From a virus: a DNA stretch of 35,055 bases. This document shows positions 20,014 through 35,055 of the stretch, piece after piece. Numbering within the stretch: the first letter of the stretch is position 1; the number at the start of each line of letters is the position of its first letter. The notes beneath the pieces are model-generated. The model saw only the letters and a program-made list of their open reading frames with translations. It made no database searches and was not told where the DNA came from. The DNA lies in IMG/VR virus record IMGVR_UViG_3300042691_023005, positions 1 through 35,055 of that record; one strand, given 5' to 3'. The translations under genes were made by a program, and so were the position numbers.

Positions 20014-22875
20014 ATGGCTAAAAAAAAATTAACAATAAATGAAGCGTTAGACCTGTTAAAAGACTATAAAGGGAGTAATAATTACTTAATTAACATACAG
20101 AGTTTATACTTTAACAAACCTGAATTTAATTTGACTGAAAGCCAGATTGAATACATATCCTTGTTTTATGATACTGTTCCAAAAGTTGCAAAGAAATGGG
20201 TTCAATTGGATTCATATTATGCAAGAATGATTGCTGATGATAAATTGTTAATAAATGTTCCAAATAGAATGTGGGTTGAAAAACTATTGGTTGAGAAGGA
20301 AAAGTCTTACCAAATTTTTGGTAAATTTTTTGAGAGTGATAATTTAAACATTTATTGGATTCCAAAAGATGCAATTGTTGTGGATAAAACAAATAAAAAT
20401 GTTGTGGTTGATTTTGAAAAGTATTCCCATAGAATGCCGTTTGAACATCAAAAGGAGGCAATTATAAAACTACTTGAGAATAATAAATTTATATTGGCAG
20501 ATGATATGGGTTTGGGTAAAGGGCTTATAAATTCAACACTTATTTACACCCCAACTGGAACTAAAAAAATATGTGAATTAACTATTGGTGATAAGGTAAT
20601 AGGTTCTAATGGTGAACCTTGTAATGTTAGTGGTGTATTTCCCCAACCAAAACAAGAAATATATGAAATTACTTTTAATGATAATGTTAAAATAAAAACT
20701 GATGCTTCACATTTATGGTTAGTAACATCTGCTTCTTATGGCAAGAATAGTAATAAAAATGTTATTAAAAAATATATTAATTTATCCACAAAACAAATGT
20801 ATGATGGTGGAAAAATAACAATAAAAGGACGTGGGTATAATATTAATAAGAATTATGAGGTGGAAACTTACTACAAGTCCCCTAATGGTAATAATAAATG
20901 GCAAATACCTATTGTGAACCCAATTGAATTTTACAATAATGTAGAGTTGCCAATAGACCCTTATTTATTGGGGGTTTGTTTGGGTGATGGACATTTCACT
21001 AAAAATAACACTTGTAGCATTGAAATGTGTAAAGACGATTTTGAAGAAATGCTTGATTCTTTTGAATTGAAACCAATAGGTTTAACTTCAAAATTAAAAG
21101 GAGGTAAAATACATTTTGGTGAAATATTAAATGAATTAGAATTACATAATACTCGCTCACACACCAAATTTATTCCAGATATATACAAATATTCATCCAT
21201 TGAAGACCGCCTTGCTATATTGCAAGGTTTAATGGATACAGATGGTCATTGTATGTTATCCAAAAATGGGGTGTTTCAAGGAACTGAATATTCAACAGTT
21301 TCTGAAAGATTATGTGATGATGTTGCCGAAATTGTCCATACATTGGGGGGCATTTGCAGGAAAAGTTCAAAGCGTGGTGCTTATATTAAGAATGGGGTAA
21401 AAGTGGAATGTAGGATTGTATATAGGCTTAACATTAAATTATCTAATGATATGAACCCTTTTAGGTTGAAGAGAAAAGCAGATGCTTATAATCAACCTAA
21501 AAAATATTCAGTTGGTAGATATATTAAAAATATTGAGAAAGTGGGGGAAGATTATACAACTTGCATTTCAGTTGATGCTAATGATAAATTATATGTTGCA
21601 GAACATTGTATTGTAACACATAATACAAGTTCTGCCATTGTGGCTTCAATTGAGGCAAAACCAAACAAAACATTAATAATATGTCCAGCAAGTTTGAAAC
21701 AGAATTGGAAAAGAGAAATACAAAACTACACAGATAAACCAATTTATATTTGTGAAGGTAAGAAATATGAAGATTCTGCTGATTATGTCATAATTAATTA
21801 TGACATTATGAAAAATTTTCATTCATTAAAATCAAAAGAAGAAACAATAATTCAAAAATCAAAATTTGATTTGGTTATAATTGATGAATCTCATTATATT
21901 AAATCTCCACAAGCATCCAGAACCAAATTAATAAATGATATTTGCAAAGATATAAATAAAATTTGGTTACTAACTGGAACGCCATTAACATCAAGACCTA
22001 TTGATTATTTCAACTTGTTATCATTGGTTGATAGCCCTGTTTCAAAGAATTGGATGGCTTATGTTAAAAGGTATTGTGCTGGGTATCAATTTACTGTTGG
22101 GATGAATAAGGTATGGAATGTGAATGGTGCATCAAATCTGGATGAATTAAGGGAGAGAACTTCACCACTATTATTAAGACGTTTAAAAGAGAATGTGTTG
22201 GATTTGCCAGAAAAGATAATAACACCAGTCTATTTAACACTAAAATCAAAAGAATATGAGAATGTGATGGGTGAATATTTTGATTGGGTTAAGAACAATC
22301 CAAAGGAATCAAAATCATTGAGTGTTCAATTCACCAAACTTATGAAAGTAAGACAAATTATTGCTGACGAAAAGGTTAAGAACACCATAGAATTAATTCA
22401 GAATACCCTAGAACAAGAAAGGAAGGTCATTGTGTTCTCAAACTTTACAGGTTCATTAAACAAGATATATGAGCATTTTAAGAAAAATGCAGTTAAATTA
22501 GATGGAAGTTCAACTACAAAACAACGTCAAGATAGTGTGGATAAATTTCAAAATGAAGATAAAATTAAAGTATTTGTTGGAAACATAAAGGCAGCAGGTG
22601 TTGGAATTACCTTAACAAGTGGTGATGTTGTTATCTTTAATGATTTATCTTTTGTTCCAGCCGATCATAGCCAAGCAGAAGATAGGGCATATAGAATTGG
22701 TCAGAAAAACTCTGTATCTGTATTATACCCAATATTTGAAAACACCATTGAGGGAATTATATATGATATGTTAGATAGGAAGAAAAAGATTATATCAACA
22801 GTATTGGGTGACAACTTAATTGAAGCAGATGTAAGTGAAGATATTTTAACACAAATATTAAATTTTGGAAAATAA
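20014..22875 (+). CDS. SNF2-family helicase with an in-frame intein
   Basis: A 953-codon reading frame; without the intein the mature helicase would have 585 residues. Residues 1-169 and 538-953 form a SNF2-type ATPase. Walker A DDMGLGK-T is split by the intein after Lys169 with Thr538 as the next host residue. Motif II is DLVIIDESHYIK, motif III WLLTGTP, and the C-terminal RecA-like domain has KVIVFSNFTGSLNKIYEHF, AGVGITLTSG and QAEDRAYRIGQK (motif VI). Small phage SNF2 helicases of this size act in replication, recombination or strand remodelling. The ATPase cannot work unless the intein splices out. A weak host-type promoter precedes it, and a host-type promoter follows for the next gene. 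Confidence 0.92.
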   Translation: MAKKKLTINEALDLLKDYKGSNNYLINIQSLYFNKPEFNLTESQIEYISLFYDTVPKVAKKWVQLDSYYARMIADDKLLINVPNRMWVEKLLVEKEKSYQIFGKFFESDNLNIYWIPKDAIVVDKTNKNVVVDFEKYSHRMPFEHQKEAIIKLLENNKFILADDMGLGKGLINSTLIYTPTGTKKICELTIGDKVIGSNGEPCNVSGVFPQPKQEIYEITFNDNVKIKTDASHLWLVTSASYGKNSNKNVIKKYINLSTKQMYDGGKITIKGRGYNINKNYEVETYYKSPNGNNKWQIPIVNPIEFYNNVELPIDPYLLGVCLGDGHFTKNNTCSIEMCKDDFEEMLDSFELKPIGLTSKLKGGKIHFGEILNELELHNTRSHTKFIPDIYKYSSIEDRLAILQGLMDTDGHCMLSKNGVFQGTEYSTVSERLCDDVAEIVHTLGGICRKSSKRGAYIKNGVKVECRIVYRLNIKLSNDMNPFRLKRKADAYNQPKKYSVGRYIKNIEKVGEDYTTCISVDANDKLYVAEHCIVTHNTSSAIVASIEAKPNKTLIICPASLKQNWKREIQNYTDKPIYICEGKKYEDSADYVIINYDIMKNFHSLKSKEETIIQKSKFDLVIIDESHYIKSPQASRTKLINDICKDINKIWLLTGTPLTSRPIDYFNLLSLVDSPVSKNWMAYVKRYCAGYQFTVGMNKVWNVNGASNLDELRERTSPLLLRRLKENVLDLPEKIITPVYLTLKSKEYENVMGEYFDWVKNNPKESKSLSVQFTKLMKVRQIIADEKVKNTIELIQNTLEQERKVIVFSNFTGSLNKIYEHFKKNAVKLDGSSTTKQRQDSVDKFQNEDKIKVFVGNIKAAGVGITLTSGDVVIFNDLSFVPADHSQAEDRAYRIGQKNSVSVLYPIFENTIEGIIYDMLDRKKKIISTVLGDNLIEADVSEDILTQILNFGK
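20521..21624 (+). mobile_element. Class 3 intein with LAGLIDADG homing endonuclease
   Basis: Intein of 368 residues (170-537 of the frame) inside Walker A, between GLGK and T. The start is GLINSTLIYTPTG, so residue 1 is Gly instead of Cys/Ser/Thr. Block B is TDASHLW with His233 and Trp235 (B:12). Block F is TTCISVD with Cys517 (F:4). Block G is CIVTHN with Thr535 (G:5) and terminal Asn537, then +1 Thr538. Trp/Cys/Thr at these three places is the class 3 signature, in which the block F Cys is the first nucleophile. The two endonuclease motifs are LLGVCLGDGH (319-327) and LQGLMDTDGH (403-412), both with their Asp. Confidence 0.88.
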
Positions 22876-23209: not shown

Positions 23210-23677
23210 TTATCTTACTATTCTTCCTTTTATAAATCCAGGTTTAACCATTTCTCTTAATTCATCATCATCTAAATCCATTGCAAATACACTTGATCGG
23301 ATAAATAAATCACCCCCAACTTGCAAACCTTTTGGTAATGAAGTTATTTTTGTGTATTTTAAATTCAAATTACCACCAACTTCTAATCCTTCTGGTAATG
23401 ATTTTATTTTAGTTCCAACTAAATTCAAATTACCTTTGATATTTAAATCTCTTGGTAATGAAGTTATTTTTGAAAATTGAAGATTCAAATTACCTTTAAT
23501 TTTCAATCCTTCTGGTAATGATGTTATTTTTGATTCAAATAAATCTAAATCACCTTCAATATTTAAATCATCTTCTGTTAATGGTATATTATTCATATAC
23601 TTCCACATAAATGGTGGGTTTTGCTCTTCATTCTCTTCAAGGAAATCAAATATTCTTTTTAGTTGTTCTATTTTCAT
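23210..23677 (-). CDS. Leucine-rich-repeat-like protein, paralogue 3 of 3
   Basis: A 155-residue protein, the last gene of the LRR operon. The N-terminal leader MKIEQLKRIFDFLEE is shared with the next paralogue. About five repeats of 22-23 residues follow, of the form ITSLPEGLKIKGNLNLQFSK and KSLPEGLEVGGNLNLKYTK. It ends with DDDELREMVKPGFIKGRIVR, a tail found in changed form in all three copies. The repeat resembles the LPEGL type of bacterial LRR proteins (YopM-like). The ATG overlaps the upstream TAA by one base (TAATG). LRR surfaces bind proteins; the partner is unknown. Confidence 0.75.
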   Translation of the reverse strand: MKIEQLKRIFDFLEENEEQNPPFMWKYMNNIPLTEDDLNIEGDLDLFESKITSLPEGLKIKGNLNLQFSKITSLPRDLNIKGNLNLVGTKIKSLPEGLEVGGNLNLKYTKITSLPKGLQVGGDLFIRSSVFAMDLDDDELREMVKPGFIKGRIVR

Positions 23678-24159
23678 TATATTAATATTTCTCCGTGTAT
23701 AAATCCAGGATAAACCATTTCTCTTAATTCATCCTCATAATCATCATTATGATCATAATCATCGGCTAATGGAGTTCCAATTAAGTCCAAATCACCGCCA
23801 ACTTCCAATCCTTTTGGTAATGATTTTATATCTGTATATACTATATTCAAATCACCCCCAACTTCTAATCCTTCTGGTAATGATGTTATTTTTGTATTAG
23901 CCAAAGACAAATCACCCCCAACTTTCAACCCTTTTGGTAATAACATTATCTTTGAAATGGATAAATCTAAATCACCATCAACTTTCAACCCTTCTGGTAA
24001 TGAAGTTATATTTGATTGAAACAAATTCAAATTGCCTTTAACATTTAAATCTTCTTCTATTAATGGTTCATTATTTTTAAATTTCCATAAAAATGGTGCT
24101 CTATGTTCTCCCTTTTCTTCAAGAAAATCAAATATTCTTTTTAGTTGTTCTATTTTCAT
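23677..24159 (-). CDS. Leucine-rich-repeat-like protein, paralogue 2 of 3
   Basis: A 160-residue protein. The leader MKIEQLKRIFDFLEEKGEHR is followed by five repeats: ITSLPEGLKVDGDLDLSISK, then MLLPKGLKVGGDLSLANTK, ITSLPEGLEVGGDLNIVYTD and others. The end is acidic, DDYDHNDDYEDELREMVYPG, before the common FIHGEI tail. Start and stop overlap neighbouring genes by one base as TAATG on both sides, so the three genes are coupled. At DNA level the first ~40 bases are nearly identical to those of paralogue 3, pointing to tandem duplication. Confidence 0.75.
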   Translation of the reverse strand: MKIEQLKRIFDFLEEKGEHRAPFLWKFKNNEPLIEEDLNVKGNLNLFQSNITSLPEGLKVDGDLDLSISKIMLLPKGLKVGGDLSLANTKITSLPEGLEVGGDLNIVYTDIKSLPKGLEVGGDLDLIGTPLADDYDHNDDYEDELREMVYPGFIHGEILI

Positions 24160-24743
24160 TATCTTTTTATTTTTCCATTTATATACCCTCCTGGTTTTAC
24201 CATATCTCTAATCTCCCATGCTTTATAATTTTTTAATGTTTCAGACAAGTATATATTACGACCAACTTTCAATCCTTGTGGTAATAATTCTATTCTTGAA
24301 AATGATAAATCTAAATAACCAACAACTTGCAAACCTTCTGGCAATGAGGTTAGGGTTGAAAATTCTAAAAGCAAATTACCACCAACTTTCAAACCTTCTG
24401 GTAATGATTCCATAGATGAATATTGTAAATGCAAATTACCTCTAACTATCAAATCTTTTGGCAATGATTCAATTGCTGATTTATATAATAGCAAATCACC
24501 ACTAACCTCCAATCCTTCTGGTAGTGAGGTTATTTTTGAACCTCTTAAAGATAAATCACCCCCAACTTTCAATCCTTCTGGTAATGAGGTTATACTTGAA
24601 AATCTTAAATCCAAATCACCTTTAACATTTAATTCTTCTTTTGTTAATGGTATATTATTAATTAATTTCCATTTAACTGGTGCCCTATGCTCTCCCTTCT
24701 CTTCAAGGAAATCAAATATTCTTTTTAGTTTGGTAATATCCAT
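24159..24743 (-). CDS. Leucine-rich-repeat-like protein, paralogue 1 of 3
   Basis: A 194-residue protein from the ATG at 24743, the first and longest copy. The leader MDITKLKRIFDFLEEKGEHR is followed by about seven 23-residue repeats, such as ITSLPEGLKVGGDLSLRGSK and MESLPEGLKVGGNLLLEFS, and the tail AWEIRDMVKPGGYINGKIKR. An upstream extension to 24800 exists, but it would cross the promoter box and overlap the SOD start, so the inner ATG is chosen. It is divergent from SOD and shares one palindromic AT box with it. No signal peptide, so it probably acts inside the cell. Confidence 0.75.
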   Translation of the reverse strand: MDITKLKRIFDFLEEKGEHRAPVKWKLINNIPLTKEELNVKGDLDLRFSSITSLPEGLKVGGDLSLRGSKITSLPEGLEVSGDLLLYKSAIESLPKDLIVRGNLHLQYSSMESLPEGLKVGGNLLLEFSTLTSLPEGLQVVGYLDLSFSRIELLPQGLKVGRNIYLSETLKNYKAWEIRDMVKPGGYINGKIKR

Positions 24744-24751
24744 TATCTTAA

Positions 24752-24768
24752 TATTTATAATATAAATA
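24752..24768. promoter_or_regulatory. Shared palindromic late-type box between LRR operon and SOD
   Basis: TATTTATA-A-TATAAATA is a palindrome with a one-base centre. It lies 9 bases before each divergent start (24743 leftward, 24778 rightward), so it could serve both directions. Confidence 0.5.
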
Positions 24769-24777
24769 TAATCTTTT

Positions 24778-25467
24778 ATGAAAATACTGGAAACAATCAA
24801 AGAAGAAATAATATCAAGAATACATAAAGATAATGTTAATTTTTTAATTCAAGAAATGAAAAAAGTTGGCATTGAAAAACTTCCTTATTCATATGCTTCA
24901 TTAAAACCTTTTGTTGATGAAAAGACAATGAATATTCATTATAACAAACATTACATTGGTTATGTTGATAAATTGAATAAAGCATTAAAGAAAACAAAAT
25001 CAAATGGTGATTTGAAGCAAATCATATCAAACATAAGCAAATATGATAATAAGATTAGGAATAATGCTGGTGGCGCATTTAATCATGCTTTATTCTGGAA
25101 TATGCTAACCCCCACCAAAAAGAATGTCCCAAAGGAATTAAAAACAAAAATAAATGCAAGTTTTGGAAGATTTAATGCTTTCAAGAAAAAGTTTGAGGAG
25201 GTTGCAAAAGACCATTTTGGATCCGGATGGGTCTGGCTTGTTGCAACCAAAAATAATAGATTAAAAGTGATAAGCACACCAAACCAGGATAACCCCCTAA
25301 TGAATGTGATTAAGGATGGGGGCTTCCCAATATTGGGATTGGATTTGTGGGAGCATGCCTATTATCTAAAATATCAAAACAAAAGGGATGAATATATTCA
25401 TAACTTTTGGGATTATGTAAATTGGGATTTTGTTCTTGAATTGTATCAAAATGCAAATGATAAGTAG
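24778..25467 (+). CDS. Superoxide dismutase, Fe/Mn family, Mn-type signature
   Basis: A 229-residue protein that converts superoxide to oxygen and hydrogen peroxide. After an N-terminal extension of about 33 residues, the SOD fold starts at KLPYSYASLKPFVDEKTMNI. Metal ligands are all present: His54 (NIHYNKHY), His103 (GGAFNHALFW), Asp189 and His193 (LGLDLWEHAYY). Gly99, at the position of the Fe-type Gln, together with Gln170 (STPNQDNPL) is the manganese-type pattern. There is no export signal, so it is cytoplasmic or carried in the particle. It lies between phage genes (LRR operon and neck protein) and has a late-type promoter box. The extension is unusual and could target the protein. Confidence 0.93.
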   Translation: MKILETIKEEIISRIHKDNVNFLIQEMKKVGIEKLPYSYASLKPFVDEKTMNIHYNKHYIGYVDKLNKALKKTKSNGDLKQIISNISKYDNKIRNNAGGAFNHALFWNMLTPTKKNVPKELKTKINASFGRFNAFKKKFEEVAKDHFGSGWVWLVATKNNRLKVISTPNQDNPLMNVIKDGGFPILGLDLWEHAYYLKYQNKRDEYIHNFWDYVNWDFVLELYQNANDK

Positions 25468-27633: not shown

Positions 27634-30312
27634 TTAAACATTATCATATATTAAGTTTGGGTTCACATCTATTTTTTCCCAAAATTTAACCTCATCTTCT
27701 GATATAACCATTACATCATTTAAATCATCTTGATTCTTCTCCTCATAAGGAATACCATTAATCAATACGCACTCTTCTGTTGTAAAGAATTGCCTATCTG
27801 CTGGGTCTTTTATTAAAATTCTATCCCTAATCTCTGGGCTAAAAGCAACCAATAATGGAGTTATCCTTTTATTAAAAGTTACAACAGCCCGTGGCACGTT
27901 ATAGTCACCAGTCAAGTCAGGGGTTTTTTCAAACACATTCTGATCAATATAATAGCAATTTAATTTAATACCATCCTTTGTCTTTGACACATCCCCGTGT
28001 GATTGTTTTGTTCCATTATTTACATAATATATAATATCACCAAGATTCACATGTAATTTTTCCTTTATAATTAATTCCATGTGAGCCATCTTGCTTGTGG
28101 TACTTCCAGCCTTATTTAATGTCTTTGACCTTTTTATATAGTCTTGAACATTTTGTCTAACCTTTGCTTTGTTTGCAATTTCAATTAGGGGGATTTCCTT
28201 ATTATAAATCTTTTCAAAATAGTTATAATATTCTTCAATAAATTCTTTTCCTTTACCTTCAAGCAATAACTTAACCCCAACATCAATAAATCTTTCAATA
28301 TATTGTGGAAGTTTTTTTGATTTGATTGAATTTCCTGTCAACTTTATTTTGCCATCATTTTTCATAATAGCATAGTTTTTTCTTGCAAAATTCACACAAG
28401 ATGCCCAATGACCATCTAAGTCTAATGCCATCTCTTTTTTCATATATAAATCATTGTATTCTGCAACGTCAGCATATATACCTTTGTAAACCTTATCAAG
28501 TTTAACTTTCCAGTTATTTCCTTTGCCAATATATTCCCTATTCTCAAAATCATCTGGTGCTGAAAAGTTAACACCATCTGTATCACAAACTAATGGGACA
28601 TAACCCCTATCCATAAAGAATTTAATCATATGTCTTAAATATAATCTCCCTGTGCAAGTTATCTCTTCACCCTTATCCATTTCAGCCCAGGGGAAAACTA
28701 ATGGTGCTGATAATGAACCAAACAAAGAGTTAATGAAAATCTTTATTGGTAATTGCTTATTATCATATGTTGCTGAAATTTTCTTGTCTTTGTCCTTCCA
28801 CTCTTCCGCCAAGTTCTTATAATCTATCCTTGCATTTCTAAAAAACTTTAACATACCTTTCAAAACACCAGTTATATCACAAGATGGGAACACATCATGA
28901 GCCAATTGTATGGATGGGTATAGGGATGAGAAGTCAAGTTTTATGATATTCTTTGAATAACCCACCTTAACCAACCTGGATAATCCCCCAACAAAGTTCC
29001 TCTTACCCTCACTTTGGGGTATGGCCAACTGATTATTGTATGACCAAGCCAACATCAACACCTTCCATAACCCTGCCGTACCCATTGTATAAATCCTTTC
29101 AAAAGGTAATGGAACCATCTTTGCCAATAAGAATGATGCTTGACTAAATTCTGAATCAACTCTCATTGTTTCTTCTAAGTCATCATCAAGATAGGCTTCA
29201 ACAAGTTTATCGCCTGCAATTCTCTTATATACTTTTGGAAATCTAATATCAAGGTCAGGATACTCTGATGCTAATTTATATTTGCCATTATTAACATTTA
29301 AGAAATATTCTTCTTTGTCTTGATACATTTTACCAATCTTTGTGTGTTCAATATACACACGATCTTCATCTTCGGCATTTATATATTTTGTAATATATTT
29401 AAGACCAGCAGATTTTATATCACTATTAATGGCTTGTGCTCTTCTTACAGAGTGAATTACGTCAATAACATTATACCCCCAAATAGAGGTCTGTTTGTAA
29501 TTCTCAACATCACCCCCTAATTTTAACATAGAATCCCTTCTTGTATAGGATTTTGTTGGGTTCAAGGACTTACAAGCAGTTGGAGCGTGTATCTTTAATA
29601 TCTCACATCTTTTGAAAATCCATTCCCAGTCAAACGTTGATGAGTTATAACCTGAAATGATTGTCGGTTTAATTTCATCAATGATTTTAAAGAACTCCAC
29701 AATACCATTTGCTTCATCTTCTGGGTTGATACATTCTATAATCTTGGAATAACCTTTATTGGTTTTAATACCAATCATAAATATTCTACCATCAGTAGGT
29801 TCTAATGCTGTGGTTTCTAAGTCAAATACAAGTCTTGTTATATCATCATAAGAATCAAAACCTTTAAACAATCTTTTACCTTTGGATATGAGATATTGGT
29901 CAACTGGGGGTAGCATAATCATTTTGGTTCGCCCAATTTCACTCTTTGGGTCTAATCCACCCTCCTTGAAGAAAGCCGTTAAATTCCTATAACCCTTTAA
30001 TGATTGCACCAAAAACTTCATTCCATTTTCCAATCTTGGGTGGTCATCTGTTCTTAATTTTGTTATGATAATACTATGCTTGGTCATTGCCTCCTTTTGC
30101 AAAGCCTTTGACTTGTTGTAAAAATTTAAGGAGTTCAAATTGCCAACCCAACAGAATGCTGTGAATGTATCTTTTAAGATTTGTTTACCTTTATTGGGGA
30201 TTTCCTTTATCTTATATATGCTATTTGACATAAAATCATACTCCAAAGCGACAATATGCTCTTCAGGATCAGTCCCATTAAGGAACTCCTCAATATCTTG
30301 GCTTGTTAACAT
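27634..30312 (-). CDS. Family B DNA polymerase with 3'-5' exonuclease
   Basis: An 892-residue protein from the ATG at 30312. The exonuclease part has RLVFDLETTALEP with Asp164/Glu166 (Exo I) and ISGYNSSTFDWEW (Exo II). The polymerase motifs are KLDFSSLYPSIQ (motif A, Asp460), KIFINSLFGSL (motif B, near residue 525) and VCDTDGVNF (motif C, Asp577 and Asp579). This order and size match T4 gp43-like replicative polymerases. The frame extends upstream to 30378, but that part overlaps the preceding gene, so the inner start is used. It copies the phage genome. Upstream is one small gene in the same operon, with 31 bases between them. Confidence 0.92.
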   Translation of the reverse strand: MLTSQDIEEFLNGTDPEEHIVALEYDFMSNSIYKIKEIPNKGKQILKDTFTAFCWVGNLNSLNFYNKSKALQKEAMTKHSIIITKLRTDDHPRLENGMKFLVQSLKGYRNLTAFFKEGGLDPKSEIGRTKMIMLPPVDQYLISKGKRLFKGFDSYDDITRLVFDLETTALEPTDGRIFMIGIKTNKGYSKIIECINPEDEANGIVEFFKIIDEIKPTIISGYNSSTFDWEWIFKRCEILKIHAPTACKSLNPTKSYTRRDSMLKLGGDVENYKQTSIWGYNVIDVIHSVRRAQAINSDIKSAGLKYITKYINAEDEDRVYIEHTKIGKMYQDKEEYFLNVNNGKYKLASEYPDLDIRFPKVYKRIAGDKLVEAYLDDDLEETMRVDSEFSQASFLLAKMVPLPFERIYTMGTAGLWKVLMLAWSYNNQLAIPQSEGKRNFVGGLSRLVKVGYSKNIIKLDFSSLYPSIQLAHDVFPSCDITGVLKGMLKFFRNARIDYKNLAEEWKDKDKKISATYDNKQLPIKIFINSLFGSLSAPLVFPWAEMDKGEEITCTGRLYLRHMIKFFMDRGYVPLVCDTDGVNFSAPDDFENREYIGKGNNWKVKLDKVYKGIYADVAEYNDLYMKKEMALDLDGHWASCVNFARKNYAIMKNDGKIKLTGNSIKSKKLPQYIERFIDVGVKLLLEGKGKEFIEEYYNYFEKIYNKEIPLIEIANKAKVRQNVQDYIKRSKTLNKAGSTTSKMAHMELIIKEKLHVNLGDIIYYVNNGTKQSHGDVSKTKDGIKLNCYYIDQNVFEKTPDLTGDYNVPRAVVTFNKRITPLLVAFSPEIRDRILIKDPADRQFFTTEECVLINGIPYEEKNQDDLNDVMVISEDEVKFWEKIDVNPNLIYDNV

Positions 30313-30343
30313 AATTATGTATTTTAAGGGTGAAAAAAAACTA

Positions 30344-30718
30344 TTAATTGAACTTCTTAACAAATGAGTCCAGGACAATTATAGTTAATTCTTCCCTCAA
30401 AGGCAATATGAGATCCCCATTTTCAGTTCTAATTAAGAACTCACCTTTATATATGCCTGGTGTGTTGGTCTCTCGTTTCTTGAATTGATAATATATATAA
30501 TACTCTATGATGGGGGTTGGTTCAACTGTTTCCTTTGCAACTAAGTATGCGTCTGCATTTGCTATCTTATAAACACCACTTTTTGAATCAACCATTGAAA
30601 ATAATATGGTAGATGATTCCAAATCTTCCATAAACTTTTTATAATCAGACCTACCATCTTTTATTGGTTCAACTTTTAATATAGGTAAATCTGCTCCTTT
30701 CTTTATGTAAAAATTCAT
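30344..30718 (-). CDS. Unknown 124-residue phage protein upstream of DNA polymerase
   Basis: It starts at ATG 30718 (MNFYIKKGADLPILKVEPIK), then DGRSDYKKFMEDLESSTILF, a beta-rich middle (YYIYYQFKKRETNTPGIYKG) and EFLIRTENGDLILPLREELT. A further ATG at 30733 lies inside an AT box (TATTTATGAATAAA) and is rejected. The shape, an N-terminal strand with LPILK and a beta barrel-like rest, resembles small uncharacterised phage proteins often found near structural genes, but I cannot name a family. It is co-transcribed with the polymerase. Confidence 0.58.
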   Translation of the reverse strand: MNFYIKKGADLPILKVEPIKDGRSDYKKFMEDLESSTILFSMVDSKSGVYKIANADAYLVAKETVEPTPIIEYYIYYQFKKRETNTPGIYKGEFLIRTENGDLILPLREELTIIVLDSFVKKFN

Positions 30719-30765
30719 ATTATCTTTATTCATAAATATATGGAAAATATAAATTCAAAAAAACC

Positions 30766-30796
30766 TTGCCTAAAATATTTTGTTTGGTTATACTTG
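30766..30796 (+). promoter_or_regulatory. Host-type promoter before the TonB-dependent receptor
   Basis: TTG at 30766-30768, 20 bases, then TATACTTG at 30789-30796 (7 of 8 positions of TAnnTTTG). A 50-base leader follows before the ATG at 30847. Confidence 0.55.
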
Positions 30797-30846: not shown

Positions 30847-33800
30847 ATGAAAAACATTTTTAAAACGTTGGTATTATCGTTAGCAACGTTAACAATTGGT
30901 TATGGTCAAGTAACTACTTCGGCTATATCAGGTACAATCAAAGATGCAAGTAGTGAAGTGCTTATTGGTGCAACCATTGAAGCGGTTCATTTACCATCTG
31001 GAACAAGTTATGGTACATCCACAGATGTTGATGGAACATATAGAATTTCAGGTATGCGTATTGGTGGACCTTATAGCATTACAGTTAGTTATGTAGGCTA
31101 TGCCACAAAAACCCAATCAAACGTTATTTTGAACTTGGGTTCAACGGCAACCTTGAATTATTCACTTGATGTAGTTGAGTATGGGTTGACTGAAGTTACT
31201 ATTAATGCAAACAAGAGTGGCATTTTCTCCTCTACTAGAACAGGCGCATCCACACAGTTTAACTCAACTGTAATCAATAGTTTACCAACAATTGGTAGAA
31301 CAATTGATGACATCACAAAATACAATGCTTATGGAAATGGGCGTTCATTTGGTGGTCAAGATAGTCGTTTTAATAATTTCACAATTGATGGTTCTGTATT
31401 CAACAATGGATTTGGTCTTGGGTCTTCTGCCGCAGCAGGTGGTAGAACAGGAACAACAGCAATCTCCATTGATGCGCTTGAAGAAGTTCAATTGAATATT
31501 GCCCCCTTTGATGTTAAACAATCAGGATTTGTTGGTGCAGGTGTAAATGCTGTAACTCGTTCTGGTACAAATGATATTGAAGGTTCATTCTATCGTTTGT
31601 TTAGGTCAAGTGATTTAGTTGGTAAAACAGTAAATGGTATTAAATTACCAACAATTTTTGTTGATGAAAAAACAACAGGTTTTAGAATTGGTGCGCCAAT
31701 CATTAAGAACAAGTTATTCATCTTTGCAAATGCTGAACAATTCTTTGGGTCAACACCAGCATTAAGTTGGCAAGCAAACAAGCCTGGTGCAACAGGTAAT
31801 GTGTCAAGAGTAACAGAAAGTGATTTGAAAGATTTGGCTTCATTTATGAAAACAAATTTCAATTATGACTTGGGACAACTTGATAATTTTAATAATGATG
31901 TAAAGAGTACAAAAGGACTTGTGCGTTTAGATTATAATATTAATCAAAAACACAAGGCATCTTTAAGATATTCTCATCATGATTCAGAATCTGAGCAATT
32001 AATTAGTTCATCAAATAGTTCTAATACAGCAGGTAATGGAAATAGACAAAACTCTGCCTTTGCAATTTCAGGTGAAAACACAGGTTATCTTATTCAAGAT
32101 AATACAAGGTCGGTAGCATTTGAATTGAATTCAGTTCTAACATCAAAAATGTCAAACAATTTTATTGCAACTTACAACAAGCAAATTGAGGACAGAAAAT
32201 ATAGAACTAATTTATTTCCAACTGTGGACATTTTAAGAGATGGAACAACTTATACAACAGTTGGTTTTGACCCCTTCACACCAAATAATAAATTGAATTA
32301 TAGCACATTGAATTTGACAAACAATTTTAATTTGTTATCTGGAAAACATTATTTCACTTTTGGTGCAGGTTACGAGTATTTCCAATCAAATAATGTGTTC
32401 TTCCCAGCATCAAATGGCGTATATGTATATAACTCCATTGATGACTTCAAGAAAGCAGCATTGCAATTCAAAAATGACCCAAGCAATCCAGTTTCACCAG
32501 TTACTCTTAATCGTTACAATTTAAGATATTCATTGCTACCAGGGGGTATTGAGCCAATGCAAACCTTAAAGGTTTCAACAGTAAGTGCTTATGTTCAAGA
32601 TGAATATACAGTAACTGAAAAGTTAAAAGTAACTGTTGGTTTAAGAGGTGATGTTGTTATATATGACAATTCAACAGCAGAAGATTTCTATAACCCAGTT
32701 GTTGGTGGTTTGACGTTCACAGACAAAAATGGCCAACCTACTAAGATTAGCACAAACAAATTCCCAAGTAGAGCATTATTGGTGTCTCCAAGATTAGGAT
32801 TCAACTATGATGTAGATGGCGAAAGAACAACCCAAGTTAGGGGTGGAACAGGTATATTTGTATCTCGTATTCCACAAGTATTGGTGTCAAATCAGTTAGG
32901 TAATAATGGTGTGAATACGGCTGTAATAAATGTAACAAACACAACAGCATATCCATTCACAACTGACCCAAAAAGATTTGCGCCAACAACAACAGATATT
33001 ACAAAATTACCTCCTTATGTTATTAATGCGTCAAGTGAAGATTTAAAATACCCATCAGTATGGAAATCAAACATTGCCGTTGACCACAAATTACCACTTG
33101 GTTTGGTTGGTACAATAGAAGGTGTATATGGTAAGACATTATCTGGTTTAAGATATATTGACGCTAACTTAAAAGCACCAGATAGATATTTAGCAGATGA
33201 AAGACCACGTTTCCCAGCATCAGGTGTTGCAAGTTCAGGTTCTGGCGCAGCAAATACCGTTGCAATTGCAAGATTTTTAAATCCAACCATTGCAAATGCT
33301 TTTGTTCTTACAAATACAGATAGAGGTTATTCTTATGCTTTAACCGCAAAGATTGAAAAACCAGCAGTTAATGGTATAGGTGGTATGATTGGTTATACCA
33401 ATGCAAAATCAACAGATTTACAATCAGTTGGTAGCACAGTTCAGGCAAATGCCCCTACTGTTGGTGGTCAAAACTTCTTAACTCCTTCCTTCACAGATAA
33501 TGATTTGCGTCATAGATTTGTTGGTTTTATTAATTATAGAATCAATTATGGTGGCAAATTTGGAGGTTCAACAGAAGTTACATTAGGTGCAACATCTGCA
33601 AGTGGAAGTAAATTAAGTTATATCTATGGTAATGATTTAAATGGTGATGGTCAGATTAATGATTTGATTTATGTGCCACAGAATGCAACAGAATTAACTT
33701 TTGCAACACTTACAGCAGGTGGAAAGACTTTCACCCCAGAACAACAACAAGTAGCATTAGACGCGCTTATTTCAAGCGATGAGTATCTTAACTCACGTAG

Positions 33801-34170
33801 GGGAACATACGCACAAAGAAACGGTGGATTCTTCCCTTGGTTAACAAGAGTTGATTTATCAGCAGTTCAAGAAGTTTATGTTAATGTTAATGGAAAGTTA
33901 AATAGATTACAATTTAGAGCAGACATCCTTAACTTTGGCAATATGCTAAACAATGCTTGGGGTGTAGGTTACTCAACAACATCTGGTAGTTTTGGTACAG
34001 CAAGTCCTTTGACAGTTGCATCGGTGTCAGCAACAGGAGTGCCAACATATAGAATGGCAACAAGAGTTGTTGATGGTACTACACAATTACTTGATAAGAC
34101 ATTTGTTAAGACAATTAGTGTTGGAAACGCTTGGCAGGCTCAATTAGGATTACGGTATTTCTTTAATTAA
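30847..34170 (+). CDS. TonB-dependent outer-membrane receptor, Oar-like
   Basis: A complete 1107-residue protein. [20 protein letters not shown] is a signal peptide with likely cleavage before Gln21. Residues about 25-112 form the carboxypeptidase-regulatory-like beta sandwich common in Bacteroidota receptors ([38 protein letters not shown]). A plug domain follows (about 115-245; [47 protein letters not shown]), then a large barrel ([34 protein letters not shown]). It ends [11 protein letters not shown], the usual barrel end. Such receptors import substrates at the outer membrane with TonB, and many are phage receptors. CGT arginine codons appear more often than in neighbouring phage genes, hinting at recent transfer from a cell. 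Confidence 0.9.
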
Positions 34171-34224: not shown

Positions 34225-34614
34225 ATGAAAGATATTATTTTAAAATCGGCTTCTTTATTATTAGCCACACTTTTTATCACATTTGGCTTAAATAAATTTT
34301 TACATTTTATGCCAGTTCCACCCCCAACAGACCCAGCAGCACAAGCATTAATGACTGGTGTATTTAGTTCTTACTTAGGAAATTTAGTTGGGTTTGTTGA
34401 AATATTTAGTAGTTTAATGTTATTATTTAGAAGAACAAGATTTCTTGGGTTCTTAATTATCATTCCTATTATTTTGAATATTATTTTATATCATTTAACA
34501 ACAAATGATATTTCAAATCCAATTATATTAATTATTGGTGTTATTTTTGGAGCAGTTTGTTATAGTCAAAAAGATGCAGTTAAAGAATTATTAAAGATAC
34601 AATCAAATATTTAA
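34225..34614 (+). CDS. DoxX-like membrane protein
   Basis: A 129-residue protein with four hydrophobic segments (about residues 8-24, 47-67, 72-90, 96-112). The DoxX-like pattern FGLNKFLHFMPVPPPTDPAA follows the first, and VGFVEIFSSLMLLFRRTRFL marks the second and third. DoxX-family proteins sit in the inner membrane; their activity is poorly known, with proposed links to redox or quinone chemistry and to oxidative stress. It may be co-transcribed with the receptor, 54 bases upstream. Confidence 0.75.
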   Translation: MKDIILKSASLLLATLFITFGLNKFLHFMPVPPPTDPAAQALMTGVFSSYLGNLVGFVEIFSSLMLLFRRTRFLGFLIIIPIILNIILYHLTTNDISNPIILIIGVIFGAVCYSQKDAVKELLKIQSNI

Positions 34615-34745: not shown

Positions 34746-35055
34746 ATGAGATTAATAACATCAGAGAGTGTTTCTTGTGGGCATCCAGACAAGGTTGCGG
34801 ATCAGATTTCAGATGCAATTTTGGATGCTTACCTTACATTAGACCCCAATGCAAAGGTTGCAGTTGAAACAATGGTAAAAGACAATTGTGTGGTATTAGG
34901 GGGTGAAATTACAAGTACTGATACAATTAATTATGATAACCTTATCAAAGCTGTGATTGAAGATATTGGCTACCATGATGCTAACCATGGGTTCTATTTC
35001 AATAATGTCACTATAATTAATTTGATTGGGAAACAAAGTCCTGAAATTAATTCTG
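34746..35055 (+). CDS. metK: S-adenosylmethionine synthetase, N-terminal part
   Basis: The first 103 residues are in the window; the rest is beyond the right edge. The start MRLITSESVSCGHPDKVADQ contains the ATP-binding GHPDK motif, then ISDAILDAYLTLDPNAKVAV and ETMVKDNCVVLGGEITS, all characteristic. The enzyme makes S-adenosylmethionine from methionine and ATP, and metK genes are known in some large phages. It would raise the methyl-donor supply for DNA methylation or counter depletion of host SAM. Its start has no Shine-Dalgarno site; the A-rich leader is normal for Bacteroidota. Confidence 0.93.
   Translation, partial: MRLITSESVSCGHPDKVADQISDAILDAYLTLDPNAKVAVETMVKDNCVVLGGEITSTDTINYDNLIKAVIEDIGYHDANHGFYFNNVTIINLIGKQSPEINS

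Follow-up and report, generated by a model that had tools for sequence, protein, structure and literature searches.

An Oar-type TonB-dependent outer-membrane receptor in T4-like phages, apparently captured from Bacteroidota hosts

TonB-dependent transporters of the outer membrane are frequent phage receptors. Some viral genomes encode such proteins themselves: the marine megaphage Mar_Mega_1 carries a TonB-dependent receptor of the SusC type (PMC9723777), and TonB receptor domains are enriched in gut viral bins of phages that infect Bacteroides and Alistipes (PMC8857322). The Oar protein of Myxococcus xanthus is a TonB-dependent transporter for the secretion of PopC, not for import (PMC6434023). 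Here, we describe an Oar-type receptor encoded in a viral contig, referred to as the window in the following, which is a complete IMG/VR record of 35,055 bases. The features around the receptor gene are:

27634..30378, minus strand: family B DNA polymerase (polB), divergent neighbour of the receptor (PF00136, 1.7e-13; phrog_262, 1.9e-55)
30344..30733, minus strand: phage ORF ahead of polB, without family match; a related ORF adjoins polB in the polB relatives listed
30766..30796, plus strand: candidate host-type promoter, TTGCC-N-TATACTTG (consensus match)
30847..34170, plus strand: Oar-type TonB-dependent receptor, 1107 aa (PF25183, PF13620, 22-strand model, Foldseek)
30847..30906, plus strand: predicted signal peptide (residues 1-20), expected to be cut before Gln21 in line with the Bacteroidetes Q-rule
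30925..31167, plus strand: CarboxypepD_reg N-terminal extension, residues 27-107 (PF13620)
31177..31578, plus strand: TonB-box-like segment and plug-like region, residues 111-244 (alignment; low model confidence)
31579..34167, plus strand: predicted 22-strand barrel, residues 245-1107 (PF25183; AlphaFold model)
34225..34614, plus strand: DoxX/MauE-like small membrane protein (PF07291, E 5.8e-5, below cut-off)
34746..35054, plus strand: N-terminal part of metK (S-adenosylmethionine synthetase), with the contig end inside the gene (PF00438, 3.3e-37; phrog_1569, 3e-30)

The receptor gene has an intact reading frame of 1107 codons, without internal stop, and its product matches the Pfam families OMP_b-brl_4 (PF25183, E 1.4e-49) and CarboxypepD_reg (PF13620, E 1.9e-19). 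The N-terminal extension formed by the latter, which defines the Oar subclass, is present in 37/37 aligned members. In Bacteroidetes, a glutamine is expected directly after the signal-peptide cut (PMC5837995), and Gln21 is unchanged in 13/13 aligned phage copies. In an AlphaFold model built with 37 relatives (mean pLDDT 72.5, pTM 0.69), the barrel is made up of 22 long strands, whose odd-numbered connections are long and whose even-numbered ones are short. The best matches of this model among solved structures in Foldseek are all TonB-dependent transporters, namely FusA (E 3.5e-23), YddB and PfeA; PHROGs, NCBIfam and a direct sequence search of the PDB gave no match for the receptor. The initial annotation had described an intact receptor with signal peptide, plug and barrel. 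Frame, signal peptide and barrel are borne out, but the plug (PF07715) is sub-threshold in Pfam for the window receptor, is matched in just one of the 37 alignment members (E 0.096), and coincides with low model confidence at residues ~111-241, its expected position. The alignment, together with a PF07715 match in one relative (G454/L279, E 5e-4), nevertheless suggests a plug at these residues. Likewise, the TonB-box-like segment LTEVTINA aligns across phage and host copies and may bind TonB.

The gene lies firmly within phage surroundings. Contigs as long as 270 kb show the order polB operon, receptor, (DoxX-like), metK, and viral contigs whose IMG sample numbers differ share the polB/receptor junction. 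We compared the junction sequence of the window with that of eight other loci; three of the latter break off within the receptor gene. In the longest of these genomes (G001, 270 kb), the tail-sheath gene occupies 28-31 kb and the receptor about 50-53 kb, followed by the Gp23 capsid gene (99-101 kb) and the terminase (110 kb); a 113-kb genome (G005) has the same layout, with the receptor between the sheath and Gp23 genes. These genes support the proposed T4-like affiliation. The integrase of a temperate phage, as would accompany a lysogenic-conversion gene, was found in 0/26 phage records (PF00589), many of which are fragments. Cellular genes to the right of the receptor had been named as a finding that would speak against a phage gene; as both flanks consist of phage genes, this objection does not apply. 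The gap of 129 bases given between polymerase operon and receptor is about right if the ORF ahead of polB starts at 30718, as in its relatives of 124 aa, and measures 113 bases from the longest ORF.

Elsewhere in the window, an SNF2-type helicase ORF of 953 aa (20014-22875) has weak intein-family matches. In relatives, many of its orthologues have a length of about 585 aa, so that an intein-like insert in the window ORF is likely. Three tandem LRR-like paralogues follow at 23210-24800, where a relative (L002) has eight related ORFs.

Relatives of the receptor are encoded on at least 104 IMG/VR contigs, as found by a motif-based scan. The barrel domain PF25183 was detected in 22 of the 24 records searched with it, which are part of these contigs, and each time in a single gene (in two matched pieces in some); the two records without a match are short or cut. 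The gene had been considered unusual for a T4-like phage, and this holds only in part: the more than 100 viral contigs encoding a relative make it a trait that recurs in some Bacteroidota phages, and not a one-off. It is nonetheless patchily distributed, as just one of the 22 polymerase-relative records searched, many of them fragments, has it; it is therefore dispensable in much of the lineage. A close relative, L034, has a 202-aa ORF in its place, whose weak match to a SAM lyase (E 0.0027) is below the cut-off; this SAM-lyase-like ORF (PF23780, L034:8900-9508) adjoins DoxX-like and metK genes.

The phages may be selective in the type of transporter they carry. A host-like genome (G025) contains 67 plug matches, versus a plug match over the cut-off in 3/32 large phage records (G435, G436 and G021), which have a second, standard TonB receptor. 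This hints that the Oar-type orthologue is favoured by phages, in a sample that is biased because our search began from the Oar-type receptor. A second TonB-dependent receptor of 750 aa, TIGR01782-like but below the cut-off, is also located near the Oar-type one at L211:14374-16626. Other neighbours of the receptor include a Cpn60 chaperonin in one phage (L191:13395-15011) and a ClpB-like gene in another (L208:4742-6757). In two phage clades, DoxX-like proteins are encoded just 3' of the receptor (window 34225-34614; L012:13394-13732), yet they are of different types, whose profiles do not find each other; the window type is retained in L034, which has no receptor.

Where did the gene come from? 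The nearest bacterial protein that we found, from a Saprospiraceae metagenome-assembled genome (JAIYCH010000089.1, L109:5001-8336), is 81% identical over the full length. It adjoins DnaK, SUI1, patatin and other chromosomal genes, which rules out that this contig is a misbinned phage. In our trees (one of 158 rows, one of 37 and a further one that includes L279), the phage receptors fall into three places: the window clade beside the Saprospiraceae gene, a clade of 54 phage rows, and L279 within a third bacterial clade. A single phage origin is rejected (AU test, p 2.1e-8; without L279, 2.3e-9). The tree requires at least three changes, a count that by itself leaves their direction open; the nesting of the phage copies within bacterial clades points to capture from Bacteroidota hosts, at least three times. 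Three phages with a sheath 61-62% like that of the window (G431, G440 and G442) carry the second of these receptor types; related phages have therefore acquired different versions. Saprospiraceae thus offer a host lead for this uncultured phage lineage.

Codon usage agrees with this picture. Among arginine codons, CGT accounts for 24% in the receptor gene (11/46) and 30% in the Saprospiraceae orthologue, as against 6% elsewhere in the window, which fits a host origin. The initial annotation had taken a CGT-rich arginine usage as a sign of recent acquisition. The enrichment is real relative to the window, but AGA remains the main arginine codon of the receptor; and while acquisition from a host is upheld by both tree placement and codon usage, its recency is so only in part, as the synonymous divergence between the window and L004 copies amounts to 0.83. 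The receptor has therefore been kept through much of the phages' divergence.

During this time, it has been under purifying selection. The dN/dS ratios between the window copy and those of L002, L004 and L109 are 0.073, 0.101 and 0.083, compared to 0.038-0.070 for the polymerase and 0.016-0.069 for five host pairs. With ratios of 0.07-0.10, and as a host-derived gene inside a phage genome, the receptor has the properties expected of an auxiliary metabolic gene in these two respects. We also looked at its surface, taking the limits of loops and strands from the AlphaFold model and comparing pairs that share ancestry and are thus not independent. The divergence of extracellular loops versus strands is 0.041 versus 0.048 for window and L002, 0.090 versus 0.124 for window and L004, and 0.145 versus 0.159 for window and L109. 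For bacterial copies, the median ratio of loop to strand divergence is 1.26-1.33, and for the large phage clade 1.03. The loops are thus not the part that changes fastest, and the rapid surface evolution expected of an arms race was not seen.

Upstream of the gene, the host-type promoter proposed previously has a candidate in the consensus match at 30766-30796; across nine window-clade loci, TTGCC...TATACTTG is nearly constant and the flanking bases differ. The motif TATTTATA is found within 50 bases upstream of 8/24 window ORFs, versus 0.3 expected, and is similarly enriched in the relatives of the window. The genes behind it include the sheath gene and that of a superoxide dismutase (24778-25467); among the polymerase relatives listed, the more distant ones have ORFs of 509-916 aa that match the latter. 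By its position and the class of these genes, TATTTATA is probably the late promoter of these phages. It stands at -27 to -30 of the receptor in some members of the large phage clade, and the genome_contigs copies checked all lack it; the window receptor has the host-type site instead of the exact late motif. A search of six sources gave no riboswitch ahead of the receptor, and hairpins at this place in the large phage clade, considered as a regulatory leader, are better read as ordinary terminators, because a tmRNA gene is located just upstream in L017 and L208. These phage-borne tmRNA genes (L017:8242-8636, L208:9389-9784) have tRNA arrays nearby.

What could the phages gain from such a protein? 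A new receptor on the cell, feeding and exclusion of other phages had all been suggested as possible functions. In the reading we prefer, apparently virulent phages of a T4-like lineage, with Saprospiraceae-like Bacteroidota as hosts, would have captured an Oar-type transporter from their host and kept it under purifying selection. We infer that the gene is expressed during infection and that its product would be exported via the host's Sec pathway, built into the outer membrane of the infected cell and energised by the host's TonB-ExbBD, so that the uptake of a scarce substrate might be kept up or raised while host expression is shut down and a large virus is being produced. Purifying selection and conserved outer loops lean towards such a transport role. 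TonB_C was found in 0/26 phage records (the host-like genome has it). Against uptake speak the export of a protein by Myxococcus Oar, the bacterial neighbourhoods of the gene, which offer no consistent operon partner and no clue to a ligand, the missing exact late motif at the window copy, the patchiness of the gene in the lineage and the other gene at its place in L034. All in all, we give about even chances to a captured transporter that is installed in the outer membrane, driven by the host's TonB and sustains uptake.

Alternatively, the phage copy could control superinfection by altering or flooding the receptor population, such that rival phages or the phage's own progeny are bound or excluded. 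TonB-dependent transporters often serve as phage receptors, virus-encoded TonB domains have been interpreted as entry receptors in the gut survey (PMC8857322), and each of the 22 barrel-positive records has one receptor gene. A receptor altered for escape should, however, differ in its outer loops, which are conserved like the barrel and close to those of the host; their slow change leans against an escape variant, although exclusion by an excess of unaltered receptor would be compatible with it. We thus consider superinfection control unlikely, though it is the strongest competitor of sustained uptake. Still less probable is a role in protein export, in which the infected cell would release a protein of phage or host origin through the transporter, as happens with PopC and Myxococcus Oar. 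The two proteins have the layout of CarboxypepD_reg extension and barrel in common, but no gene for a secreted partner consistently accompanies the receptor across phage groups, and its neighbours vary by clade. That the gene is a neutral or transient passenger from the host would agree with its patchy occurrence among polymerase relatives and with the different gene at its place in L034; purifying selection over a synonymous divergence of 0.3-0.8, three captures and the position behind the phage motif TATTTATA in one subclade make this very improbable. Finally, the several contigs that stop within the receptor gene (L020, L024 and L027) might suggest phage sequence misassembled with a bacterial chromosome, but the same junction under different IMG sample numbers, the phage genes on either side and the closest chromosomal gene found, with a DNA identity of ~79% along most of its length, rule out such a chimera, so that the receptor is indeed phage-borne.

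The at least three captures by related viruses suggest that there is a gain in rebuilding the surface of the infected cell. One may go further and propose that large virulent Bacteroidota phages repeatedly capture versions of one particular transporter out of dozens, because restoring this function of the outer membrane would be of specific use to them in infection, and in some cases express it late with the virion genes; this broader view is tentative, and we rate it below sustained uptake itself. In any case, phages in which no integrase was detected are able to acquire and retain a large outer-membrane transporter of their hosts, an unusual addition to the list of phage-borne host genes. 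It makes a question testable: is the surface of the doomed cell remodelled for feeding, or for controlling entry by others?

We found no report of a phage-borne Oar-type receptor in the literature searched, which covers part of the whole. By its described layout, the window protein resembles Myxococcus Oar (PMC6434023), with a CarboxypepD_reg extension and a 22-strand barrel; the plug with TonB box described for Oar would have its counterpart in the plug-like region and the TonB-box-like segment. Myxococcus Oar, however, is encoded on a myxobacterial chromosome and has a PF00593 barrel, a plug detectable with Pfam and a known cargo, whereas the window protein matches PF25183. The Saprospiraceae orthologue has 81% identity and similar CGT use, but resides on a bacterial chromosome behind a different upstream sequence. 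Among viruses, Mar_Mega_1 likewise combines a full TonB-dependent receptor with a very large phage genome, although its receptor is of the SusC type; the top BFVD match of the window receptor is an uncultured marine phage SusC (805 aa, 11% identity), which may or may not be that of Mar_Mega_1. The gut viral bins (PMC8857322) provide a further parallel in virus-encoded TonB receptors of Bacteroidota phages; these have the standard PF07715/PF00593 domains and come from a set rich in temperate phages, while the receptors described here are of the Oar type and an integrase was not found. Phage-encoded TonB receptors of the SusC type are thus already known, but what appears to be new is a receptor of the Oar type, captured repeatedly and placed in one subclade behind a probable phage promoter.
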